The position numbers were made by a program, and so were the translations under genes. A stretch of 43,932 nucleotides of DNA from an uncultured Spartobacteria bacterium (lineage in GTDB: Bacteria; Verrucomicrobiota; Verrucomicrobiia; Chthoniobacterales; UBA6821): NCBI GenBank assembly GCA_903847935.1, contig CAINEX010000127.1, positions 1 through 43,932 on the forward strand, in the 5' to 3' direction. Position 1 is the stretch's first letter; each line of letters begins with the position of its first letter. Of the stretch, positions 28,242 through 32,049 are shown piece after piece. A model generated the notes under the pieces. That model was not told where the DNA came from, did not search any database, and saw only the letters and a program-made list of their open reading frames with translations.

Positions 28242-29789
28242 ATGTCCGTCGAAATCCTTTCCCGCATCCAGTTCGCTCTTACCGTCTCCTTTCACTTCCT
28301 CTACCCCCCGATGACCATCGGTCTGGGAATGCTCTTGGTGATCATGGAGGGTCTTTATCTGAAGACCAAGAACCCCCTCTTCCATCAGTTGGCCCACTTC
28401 TGGACGAAGATCTTCGGACTGATCTTCGCCATCGGAGTCGCCACGGGCATCGTCATGGAATTTGAGTTCGGGACAAACTGGGCTGCCTACTCACGCTTCG
28501 TCGGCGACATCTTTGGGAGCGCCCTTGCGGCGGAGGGTATCTTCGCCTTCTTCCTCGAATCTGGTTTCCTTGCACTGCTTCTCTTCGGCTGGGACAAGGT
28601 CGGTCCAAAGACCCACTTTTTCGCGACCTGCATGGTCTGCCTAGGTTCCCATTTCAGCGCCATCTGGATCCTGATAGCAAACTCATGGATGCAAACTCCG
28701 GCAGGTTTTCACCTGGAGAGGATTACTGGAGCCATCCACACACGTTTGCCCAATAGTTACATCGTTCAGGCTTCTGACTTAGGTCATGTCCGTGCTGTCG
28801 TCGATAATTTCTGGGCTATGATCGGGAACCCCTCCTCTTTGAACAGGATCTGCCACGTGGTCTTCGGTGCATGGCTTGTGGGCGCATTCCTCGTCATGAG
28901 CATCTGTGCCTGGTACCTGCTCAAGGGACGCTTCACGACTTTTGCGCGGACTTCCATGACCGTGGCAGCTTGCTTTGCAGCCTTCACGACCGTCCTGCAG
29001 TCGATCAGCGCCGACTCTACAGCTCGCGGTGTAGTTCGCACGCAACCAATCAAACTCGCCTCTATGGAGGGAATCTACGAGACCCATGACTACACCCCCA
29101 TGACTCTCTTTGGTTATGTTGATACGAAAAATCAGACCGTCCATGGCCCACAGATTCCAGCGCTGTTGAGCTTCCTCTGTTTCCATAATTTCAAGCAACC
29201 CGTTCAGGGACTTCTTTCGATGCCGAGCGATGAGTTTCTTGCCGCTCGTAATCCCGGCTTATCTCCCGAAGAACTTGCCAAGATCCGGCCGAACTACTGG
29301 CCTGTTGTCGGTGCCGTCTTCCAGACCTATCATCTCATGATCTGCATCGGTTCGGCGGTCTTCGGACTCTCCTTTCTAGCGCTTACACTCCTCTGGAGAG
29401 GGTGGTTGTTTAAGACCGAGAATCCACTCATCCGCTTCCTTCTTTGGATCTATGTCTTTGCAGTGATTGCGCCGCAGATTTGCATGCAGGCTGGGTGGTT
29501 CACGGCCGAAATGGGACGCCAACCTTGGATTGTCTACAACATGCTCAAGACCTCCGACGGACTCTCACGTGCGGTACAAGCCAATCAGGTGGTCTTCTCC
29601 ATTATCCTTTTTGCCCTGATCTATATCCTTCTTTTCGTCACCTTCATTTATCTACTCAACAGCAAGATTCAGCACGGCCCGGATGACGATGAAGGCCATC
29701 ACACGAAGGCGATCGGGGCCTCCTCCGATGCGTCTGAGATTGCCGAAGACCTCTTCTCCCGCAAGGGACGCGCCTCCCATCAGGAGTAA
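28242..29789 (+). CDS. cydA: Cytochrome bd quinol oxidase subunit I
   Basis: CydA binds the three hemes of the bd-type terminal oxidase, which reduces O2 at high affinity and oxidises quinol. The 515-residue length is close to the E. coli protein. The first helix, with a heme-ligand His, is [20 protein letters not shown]. The central quinol-binding segment includes [20 protein letters not shown] and a loop from about residue 320 to 360 ([20 protein letters not shown]), and the invariant [17 protein letters not shown] is near the end. About nine hydrophobic helices are visible. cydB starts 13 nt downstream; no cydX or cydDC genes are in the window. Confidence 0.97.
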
Positions 29790-29802
29790 TAAACCATATC
29801 CC

Positions 29803-30840
29803 ATGCATCACATTCAGCATATCCCCCTCCTGAACAGCATTTGGTTCCTTCTCGTCGGCATCTTGCTCACGGGATACGCCATTCTTGACGGATTTGATTT
29901 CGGTGTCGGCATCCTCCACCTCTTTGTCAAAAAAGATGAAGACCGTCGCATTCTCCTAAATTCCATTGGCCCGGTCTGGGATGGCAACGAAGTCTGGCTT
30001 GTGACCGGAGGGGGAGCTCTCTTCGCAGCATTTCCTGACGCCTATGCCACCGTCTTTTCGGGATTCTACAACGCCTTCATGCTCCTGCTCGTTGCGCTGA
30101 TCTTCCGCGCCGTGGCCATTGAGTTTCGAAGCAAGGAATCCAGCACTCTCTGGAGAAAGTCTTGGGATATCGCCTTCAGCACAGGAAGTTTTCTGGCCGC
30201 ACTGCTGATCGGTGTCGCCATGGGTAATATCACCCGAGGGATCCACTTGGACGCTCAGGGCGATTACATTGGCAACTTTCTCGATCTTCTCAATCCCTAC
30301 TCCTTGCTGCTTGGTATCACGGTCGTGGCTCTCTTCGCCATGCACGGATCTATCTTTCTCGTGCTCAAGACCGAGGGTGAACTTCAGTCCACCATCAAGG
30401 GATGGGTCCCCCGCCTCATTGCTCTCTTTCTGATCCTTTTCCTCTCCTTCAATGCTGCCACTTTCTTCGAGTGTCCCGATCTTGTCACAACGATGATCAA
30501 GCGTCCCTACGGATTTGCTGTTTTGGCTCTGGATATTGCTGCAGCAATCTCAATCGGCCTTATGGTCAAGCGTGGTTATGAATTCGGTGCATTCCTCATG
30601 TCGGCCCTCACCATGGTCCTTCTCATGGCGGTGCTAGGCATCTCCTATTTCCCAAATATCGTGGTGTCGATGCCAGACCCTGCTAATAGCCTCACCATCG
30701 TCAACGCTGCATCATCCCACAAGACACTCGGGTACATGTTCATTATCGCCTGTATCGGTGTGCCAATCGTCCTTGCCTATACCGTAAGCATCTACTGGAT
30801 CTTCCGGGGCAAGACTCGCTTAGGGCATGTAGGGTATTAG
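29803..30840 (+). CDS. cydB: Cytochrome bd quinol oxidase subunit II
   Basis: CydB is the partner of CydA in the bd oxidase of the inner membrane. The ATG at 29803 (MHHIQHIPLLNSIWFLLVG) was chosen over an upstream in-frame start inside cydA, giving 345 residues. The family motif ILDGFDFGVGILHLF is followed by GPVWDGNEVWLVTGGGALFA, the best-conserved part of CydB, and GVAMGNITRGIHLDAQGDYI is the periplasmic loop. Eight or nine hydrophobic helices are evident. The gene is followed by about 165 nt without a coding frame and then a tRNA. Confidence 0.97.
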   Translation: MHHIQHIPLLNSIWFLLVGILLTGYAILDGFDFGVGILHLFVKKDEDRRILLNSIGPVWDGNEVWLVTGGGALFAAFPDAYATVFSGFYNAFMLLLVALIFRAVAIEFRSKESSTLWRKSWDIAFSTGSFLAALLIGVAMGNITRGIHLDAQGDYIGNFLDLLNPYSLLLGITVVALFAMHGSIFLVLKTEGELQSTIKGWVPRLIALFLILFLSFNAATFFECPDLVTTMIKRPYGFAVLALDIAAAISIGLMVKRGYEFGAFLMSALTMVLLMAVLGISYFPNIVVSMPDPANSLTIVNAASSHKTLGYMFIIACIGVPIVLAYTVSIYWIFRGKTRLGHVGY

Positions 30841-31006: not shown

Positions 31007-31079
31007 GGCGGTGTAGTCCAACGGCAGAGACAAGCGACTTAAAATCGCTCCAGTGTGGGTTCGAGTCCCACCACCGCTA
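31007..31079 (+). tRNA. tRNA with UAA (Leu) anticodon but class I shape
   Basis: A complete 73-nt cloverleaf can be folded. The acceptor stem GGCGGTG (31007-31013) pairs with CACCGCT (31072-31078), the first pair being a G-U wobble. The D-arm is 31016-31031 with a GG in the loop. The anticodon stem AGCGA (31033-31037) pairs with TCGCT (31045-31049) around CTTAAAA, giving anticodon TAA. The T-arm GTGGG-TTCGAGT-CCCAC spans 31055-31071. The discriminator is A79 and CCA is not encoded. The variable loop is only five nt (CCAGT), whereas bacterial tRNA-Leu normally has a long variable arm. It may be a divergent tRNA-Leu or one with another identity. Confidence 0.85.
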
Positions 31080-31188: not shown

Positions 31189-32049
31189 ATGAATAAATCT
31201 CCAAAAAGTGCCCCCAAATCCCAGAGGGTGAAGAGGGAACGGATTGCCATTGTGGATAGCCAGCCATCCAGCCGTATCGGGCTTTCCCATTTCATTAAAA
31301 AAATCGATCGCTGGGAGGTCGCATGGTCCAGTTCTACGGCCGAGGAGGCCCTGGATAAGATTTCCAAGGATGAGCCTGATCTCATGATCTTAGAGATTCA
31401 ACTGATCGGAAAAGATGGTCTCGAATTCATCAAGAGCCTGATGCCGTTGTACCCGCATCTGAAGATCTTGGTCCACTCCGCGCACAGTGAGGAGTTCTAT
31501 GCTGAGCGGTGCCTTAGAGCCGGTGCCATCGGTTATCTTCACAAGATGGATCCCATGGCTAATTTTGAGAAGGCCGTTGAAAAGGTTCTCCAGGGGGAAC
31601 TCTATCTGAATCCACGCATCGCACGCCAAGCCCTTCAGTCAGCCACGCTCCACCCCGAGAATCTAAAAGGAGACAATCATAACCTCCATAACCTGACTGA
31701 TCGTGAACTCGAGGTCATGATCCTGATGGCTGAAGGTCGCTCATGCCATGAATCGGCTGAGAAACTCAAAATCAGTCCCCGCACAGTGCAGGTTCATCGC
31801 AACAATATCCGTCTCAAGATCGGATTGCAAAGTGCGCTCCAACTCCACGCCTACGCGGTCCGATTTTACGGGGACTCAGCTCCCCTTCATCACGAACAAC
31901 ACGTCACCCCCTCTCAGGAACCCAAGGTAACGAATCACGTACTCAGCGAGAAGTCTGTTACAATAAGCCCCTCCCCGACTGTGGAGGATCTCCTCGCGGG
32001 TCAAGCTATTCGGGACGCACTCCAAAGGGTAATTCAGCGCTTCCCCTAA
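31189..32049 (+). CDS. NarL/LuxR-type response regulator with altered receiver
   Basis: This 286-residue regulator has an N-terminal receiver (residues about 18-135) and a C-terminal LuxR-type helix-turn-helix (LTDRELEVMILMAEGRSCHE, then KISPRTVQVHRNNIRLKIGL). The output domain looks fully functional. The receiver does not: the phospho-acceptor position is Glu69 (DLMILEIQLIG, where the family has LLD), and the acidic pair before it is Asp23-Ser24 (IAIVDSQPSS). The conserved Lys119 and a Ser at the Thr position (Ser97) are kept. It therefore probably works without phosphorylation, or mimics the phosphorylated state. A basic N-terminal 16-residue tail precedes the receiver. It lies 110 nt behind the tRNA. 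Confidence 0.92.
   Translation: MNKSPKSAPKSQRVKRERIAIVDSQPSSRIGLSHFIKKIDRWEVAWSSSTAEEALDKISKDEPDLMILEIQLIGKDGLEFIKSLMPLYPHLKILVHSAHSEEFYAERCLRAGAIGYLHKMDPMANFEKAVEKVLQGELYLNPRIARQALQSATLHPENLKGDNHNLHNLTDRELEVMILMAEGRSCHESAEKLKISPRTVQVHRNNIRLKIGLQSALQLHAYAVRFYGDSAPLHHEQHVTPSQEPKVTNHVLSEKSVTISPSPTVEDLLAGQAIRDALQRVIQRFP

Follow-up and report, generated by a model that had tools for sequence, protein, structure and literature searches.

The window, the whole 43,932-nt stretch of DNA analyzed here, contains a single tRNA gene, located on the forward strand at positions 31007-31079. The gene was called by both ARAGORN and the Rfam tRNA model (31007-31079/80; E 4.6e-10, gathering score 29), and it combines a leucine anticodon with a class I body. 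The following features were recognized at the locus.

31007-31079, + strand: class I-shaped tRNA-Leu(UAA), whole gene without encoded CCA (ARAGORN; Rfam RF00005, 57.9 bits; present at 97-100% identity in 12 of the 16 genomes of the genus)
31007-31044, + strand: 5′ half of the gene (nt 1-38), predicted attachment-site core, empty in this window (in relatives, a second copy lies at the opposite end of integrase elements)
31016-31031, + strand: D arm GTCCAACGGCAGAGAC with A14, A15, G18G19, and A20a; family signature YCCAAYGGCAGAGRC (sequence, relatives)
31040-31042, + strand: anticodon TAA within the loop CTTAAAA at 31038-31044 (sequence, ARAGORN)
31050-31054, + strand: variable loop of five bases, CCAGT, with U48 as its last base (the most frequent loop in the relatives listed, 75 of 243)
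29683-30840, + strand: cydB (cytochrome bd oxidase subunit II), conserved upstream neighbor; true start downstream of 29683 (Pfam PF02322, 3.3e-106; synteny)
31189-32049, + strand: LuxR-family response regulator, conserved downstream neighbor (Pfam PF00072, PF00196; synteny)

Arm by arm, the sequence reads GGCGGTG TA GTCC AACGGCAGA GAC A AGCGA CTTAAAA TCGCT CCAGT GTGGG TTCGAGT CCCAC CACCGCT A, with CGA directly 3′ in place of an encoded CCA, and all stems are paired except 13-22. A preliminary description of this gene had noted a clean tRNA fold, the TAA anticodon, A73, a G1-U72 pair, and a five-base variable loop, all of which we confirmed. The canonical class II tRNA is defined by a long variable arm of at least 10 nt, and the loop found here has 5 nt. 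The G1-U72 pair also occurs in the class II tRNA-Leu(CAA) of the same genome (GCCGGTG...CGCCGGT-A), as well as in 109 of the 243 distinct relatives listed, and is thus ordinary for the family. A search for a promoter-like match for the tRNA gene found none.

Conservation and integrative elements in the genus

The comparison of homologues proposed in the preliminary description showed that 71 of the 73 positions are invariant across the 12 carriers in the genus, while the flanks have diverged and do not align. The two variable positions are 16 (C/T) and 27 (A/G), the latter keeping the 27-43 pair. This pattern of conservation fits a working gene. In most members of the genus with enough contig, the gene lies between cydB and the LuxR-type response regulator gene; the contig of G009 carries the tRNA without these neighbors, and in G004 an element is inserted at the tRNA locus. 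No relatives of the neighboring response regulator were found in viral contigs. With a search pattern allowing both shapes, neither a class I nor a class II tRNA-Leu(UAA) was found in the draft genomes G001, G008, and G014. The ~0.7 kb that follow cydB in G001 yielded no tRNA.

In G004, nucleotides 1-38 of the tRNA are repeated upstream of the intact gene, at a distance of about 7.5 kb, and a tyrosine integrase is encoded just before the intact copy. A related integrase fragment occurs at the corresponding place in G009, and in G010 a half copy precedes a similar element end. The partial tRNA copy that bounds the integrase element of G004 on its far side marks the 5′ half of the gene, instead of the usual 3′ half, as the attachment core, a predicted integration target that is rebuilt by the element. 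The integrative element of G004 (G004:C19 5170-12817, locus L058; ~7.5 kb) also carries a RecA/DnaB-type ATPase. A group I intron behind the 5′-half copies was considered and is unsupported, as the half and intact copies of G004 flank an integrase element.

Decoding of UUA and leucine identity

The genome that contains the window is 95% complete and gave 43 tRNA hits, among which the class II leucine tRNAs have the anticodons UAG, CAA, CAG, and AAG, and UAA occurs only in the class I form. The preliminary description had suggested looking for a canonical class II tRNA-Leu(UAA) in this genome, and none was found. Across the genus, the pattern allowing both shapes detected a class II UAA gene only in G006, which lacks the class I gene, and in G003, which has both forms, the class II copy being located on a 6.8-kb contig; by this pattern search of draft genomes, the class II gene is absent from 10 of the other 11 carriers. 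In drafts, a class II copy could sit in gaps, implausibly so in all carriers, and since nine class I carriers without the class II UAA gene are at least 90% complete, missing contigs are a poor explanation for its absence. The class I tRNA is apparently the only UUA decoder of its own genome and of most carriers. In G006, whose cydB is more diverged (73%), cydB is followed by lexA (Pfam), and the class II UAA gene is adjacent to lexA, ~1.1 kb past cydB and encoded on the opposite strand. The sister genus (G295) also keeps a class II tRNA-Leu(UAA). In G003, the class II gene and an odd tRNA-Lys lie beside genes for an AAA ATPase and a VWA/metallopeptidase-type protein (G003:C19 2651-6245, locus L130), both of which have PHROG matches and are perhaps of phage or mobile DNA; a defense role for these neighbors was considered, and PADLOC gave no convincing hit.

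UUA is used at 2.1 per 1000 codons. In an alignment of 57 ORFs with their counterparts in the sister genus, where a class II UAA tRNA is present, UUA codons were aligned with leucine at 27 of 40 sites (68%), compared with 67% for UUG and 74% for CUU. On this result recoding of UUA was rejected, and it lends indirect support to charging with leucine. The leucyl-tRNA synthetase (LeuRS) of the genome is of the ordinary bacterial type and scores well above the model cutoff; a second or unusual LeuRS partner was considered, and the other matches to the LeuRS model are far below the cutoff and look like related synthetases.

The preliminary description assumed that bacterial LeuRS depends on the long variable arm, which is too strong a premise. 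The leucine identity set of E. coli comprises A73, A15-U48, G18G19, A20a, and contacts between the D and T loops; the sequence and folding of the long arm were uncorrelated with leucylation, and truncated variants without the long arm were still active (PMC9976931). The identity bases of this set, including A73, U8-A14, A15-U48, G18G19, A20a, and the D/T-loop contacts, are all present in the 31007-31079 tRNA. As A15-U48 is also found in non-leucine tRNAs of the same genome, it is the whole set and the association with the anticodon that carry weight. Of the options raised initially, a tRNA-Leu with new identity rules comes nearest, although new rules are not needed, since the tRNA has the E. 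coli determinants and leucylation reportedly does not depend on the arm.

Misreading of UUA by this tRNA is unlikely. The features expected of a mistranslating or recoding tRNA are not seen, as UUA stands at leucine sites and most carriers have no normal decoder. The earlier suggestion that UUA is misread with another amino acid is contradicted both by this alignment and by the exclusive tie of the class I body to leucine anticodons.

Short-armed relatives, origin, and alternative explanations

The gene belongs to a class I family of phage type, as shown by its D arm YCCAAYGGCAGAGRC, its variable loop of five bases closing with U48, its A73, and its leucine anticodon. The class I pattern with a leucine anticodon gave at least 120 matches each in the genome and viral collections, and an anticodon-free scan of viral contigs returned 123 matches, all with leucine anticodons (TAA 86, TAG 22, CAA 11, GAG 3, and AAG 1), counts that represent related sequences and not independent events. 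Among the 243 distinct relatives listed, A73 is present in 239 and U48 in 241, neither being set by the pattern, and position 11-24 covaries, being C-G in 182 and U-A in 59. On the anticodon counts, the class I body goes with leucine. The preliminary description had named the absence of relatives elsewhere as a point against an unusual tRNA; they are instead widespread, occurring in phages (e.g., cyanophage P-SSM7), in the tRNA arrays that other Verrucomicrobiota carry, and as solitary genes whose hosts are mainly Actinobacteria, with all usual leucine anticodons represented. A UAA pattern run against 22 genomes, most of them actinobacterial, recovered class I genes but no class II counterpart in 15 and matched nothing in the other seven; class II genes whose loop departs from the pattern would escape it.

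The annotated tRNA-Leu of cyanophage P-SSM7 (codon UUA) is likewise class I, is 92% identical over nucleotides 5-68, and shares the D-arm signature. In contrast to the short-armed leucine tRNAs of phages and arrays, the tRNA of the genus is encoded by a lone chromosomal gene and, rather than being accessory, is apparently the sole decoder of UUA. Microbacterium, Arthrobacter, and other Actinobacteria have putative lone tRNA-Leu(UAA) genes of the same class I shape and with the same D arm, but these belong to other phyla and differ in their acceptor stems. The class II tRNA-Leu(UAA) of G295 and G006 resembles the genus tRNA in its anticodon loop, T arm, A73, and leucine identity set, and differs in its long variable arm and D arm (TGGCG-AAATGGCAGACGC). 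One further sequence of the genome that had been aligned with these genes as a leucine tRNA is a tRNA-Ser and was left out of the comparison. Our literature search for a direct precedent yielded only a passing mention of a tRNA-Leu(TAG) with a short loop, encoded in a tRNA cluster of Mycobacterium (PMC6582537), that has the class I shape and a leucine anticodon in common with our tRNA; others may exist. Animal mitochondrial tRNA-Leu(UUR) is leucylated without a long variable arm, via A73 and A14 (PMC9976931); it belongs to a mitochondrial system with its own LeuRS, and we claim no close relation to it. The tRNA-Leu of phage T5 was rejected as a precedent, its gene of 85 nt being of class II size.

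We consider it highly likely that the gene encodes a working, short-armed leucine tRNA for UUA that was acquired horizontally, took over UUA decoding with loss of the class II gene, and is charged by the ordinary LeuRS; we infer that it is expressed and leucylated by LeuRS, and likewise infer its donor and the succession of events. Within the order, matches to the family were found in 12 of 197 genomes, all of this genus. The core of the gene (nt 8-65) is 97-98% identical to sequences from a phage contig and from Mycetocola and at most 88% identical to the class II genes at hand, and the phage contig carries a tail-fiber-type chaperone domain. Horizontal acquisition and replacement fit best with the restriction to one genus of the order, the likeness of the core to phage and Mycetocola sequences, and the class II gene of G006. 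With only 73 nt, the gene cannot support a dependable tree, and the donor is therefore uncertain. In the proposed scenario, an ancestor of most species of the genus would have acquired a class I tRNA-Leu from phages or other mobile DNA; UUA decoding would have passed to this tRNA, followed by loss of the class II tRNA-Leu(UAA). The ordinary LeuRS would charge the class I tRNA with leucine via A73, A15-U48, G18G19, A20a, and the D/T-loop contacts. Points against this scenario are the presence of both forms in G003 and of neither in G001, G008, and G014.

Alternatively, the genus could have shortened the arm of its own class II tRNA-Leu(UAA) by vertical descent, the likeness to phage genes being due to convergence or outward transfer. 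The anticodon and T arms do resemble those of the sister genus gene, and the class II gene of G006 also lies downstream of cydB, but that gene is on the opposite strand beside lexA, the D arm and variable loop are closer to the phage and actinobacterial class I genes than to class II, as the core identities indicate, and the class I form is absent elsewhere in the order. We regard this explanation as improbable. The chance that the tRNA carries another amino acid, with programmed or tolerated misreading of UUA, is considerably smaller: a class I shape is not that of a textbook tRNA-Leu and would alone point to another identity, but UUA sites are leucine sites, wholesale misreading would hit every UUA in the majority of carriers that have no normal decoder, leucine anticodons are kept in 123 of 123 relatives, and the leucine identity elements are present.

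The pseudo-tRNA option of the preliminary description, here a relic that persists solely because integrative elements use it as an attachment site, has a slighter probability still. An attachment site in the 5′ half could by itself conserve that half, and the lack of a promoter-like match would agree with a relic. However, the 3′ half, outside the attachment core, is equally invariant in the carriers, which such a site leaves unexplained; the gene shows neither relaxed selection nor broken stems; and the overall conservation, together with the failure to find another UUA decoder in most carriers, contradicts a pseudo-tRNA. A main role outside translation, for example in regulation or a tRNA-dependent side pathway, is compatible with the sequence alone and was also raised in the preliminary description, but as a main role it is unneeded and its probability is close to nil, as this tRNA is the only UUA decoder found in a genome that uses UUA, and its relatives cover all usual leucine anticodons. 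The 31007-31079 tRNA is very probably an acquired, functional leucine tRNA of unusual shape and not a recoding device, and it cautions that shape alone is insufficient to call a pseudo-tRNA or a recoding tRNA.

The norm of long-armed bacterial tRNA-Leu is broken in this genus and, it appears, in many Actinobacteria, phages, and tRNA arrays, which suggests that the long arm can be dispensed with. Such natural short-armed leucine tRNAs provide material for testing the requirements of LeuRS, and the genus presents a case of a horizontally acquired tRNA that apparently turned into the sole decoder of a sense codon. More tentatively, and with less than an even chance in our estimation, a mobile lineage of short-armed tRNA-Leu may have repeatedly replaced class II tRNA-Leu(UAA) as the sole UUA decoder, in this genus and in many Actinobacteria, perhaps favored by phages if armless tRNAs escape host nucleases that cut the arm. 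This phage preference is suggested by the tRNA-Tyr of phage T5, which reportedly resists the arm-cutting retron-Eco7 through its distinctive variable loop (PMC13096335).

Many Actinobacteria, with L133, L141, L149, and L155 among the loci concerned, appear to possess no tRNA-Leu(UAA) other than a class I-shaped one, a pattern broader than that of the genus. Dense tRNA arrays were observed in other Verrucomicrobiota (G249 and G255; loci L062 and L070), where nine tRNAs within about 3 kb include a short-armed tRNA-Leu with the anticodon CAG or TAG, and the planctomycete and Chloroflexaceae records at L209 and L211 contain 34 and 24 tRNAs in 8 kb, respectively.
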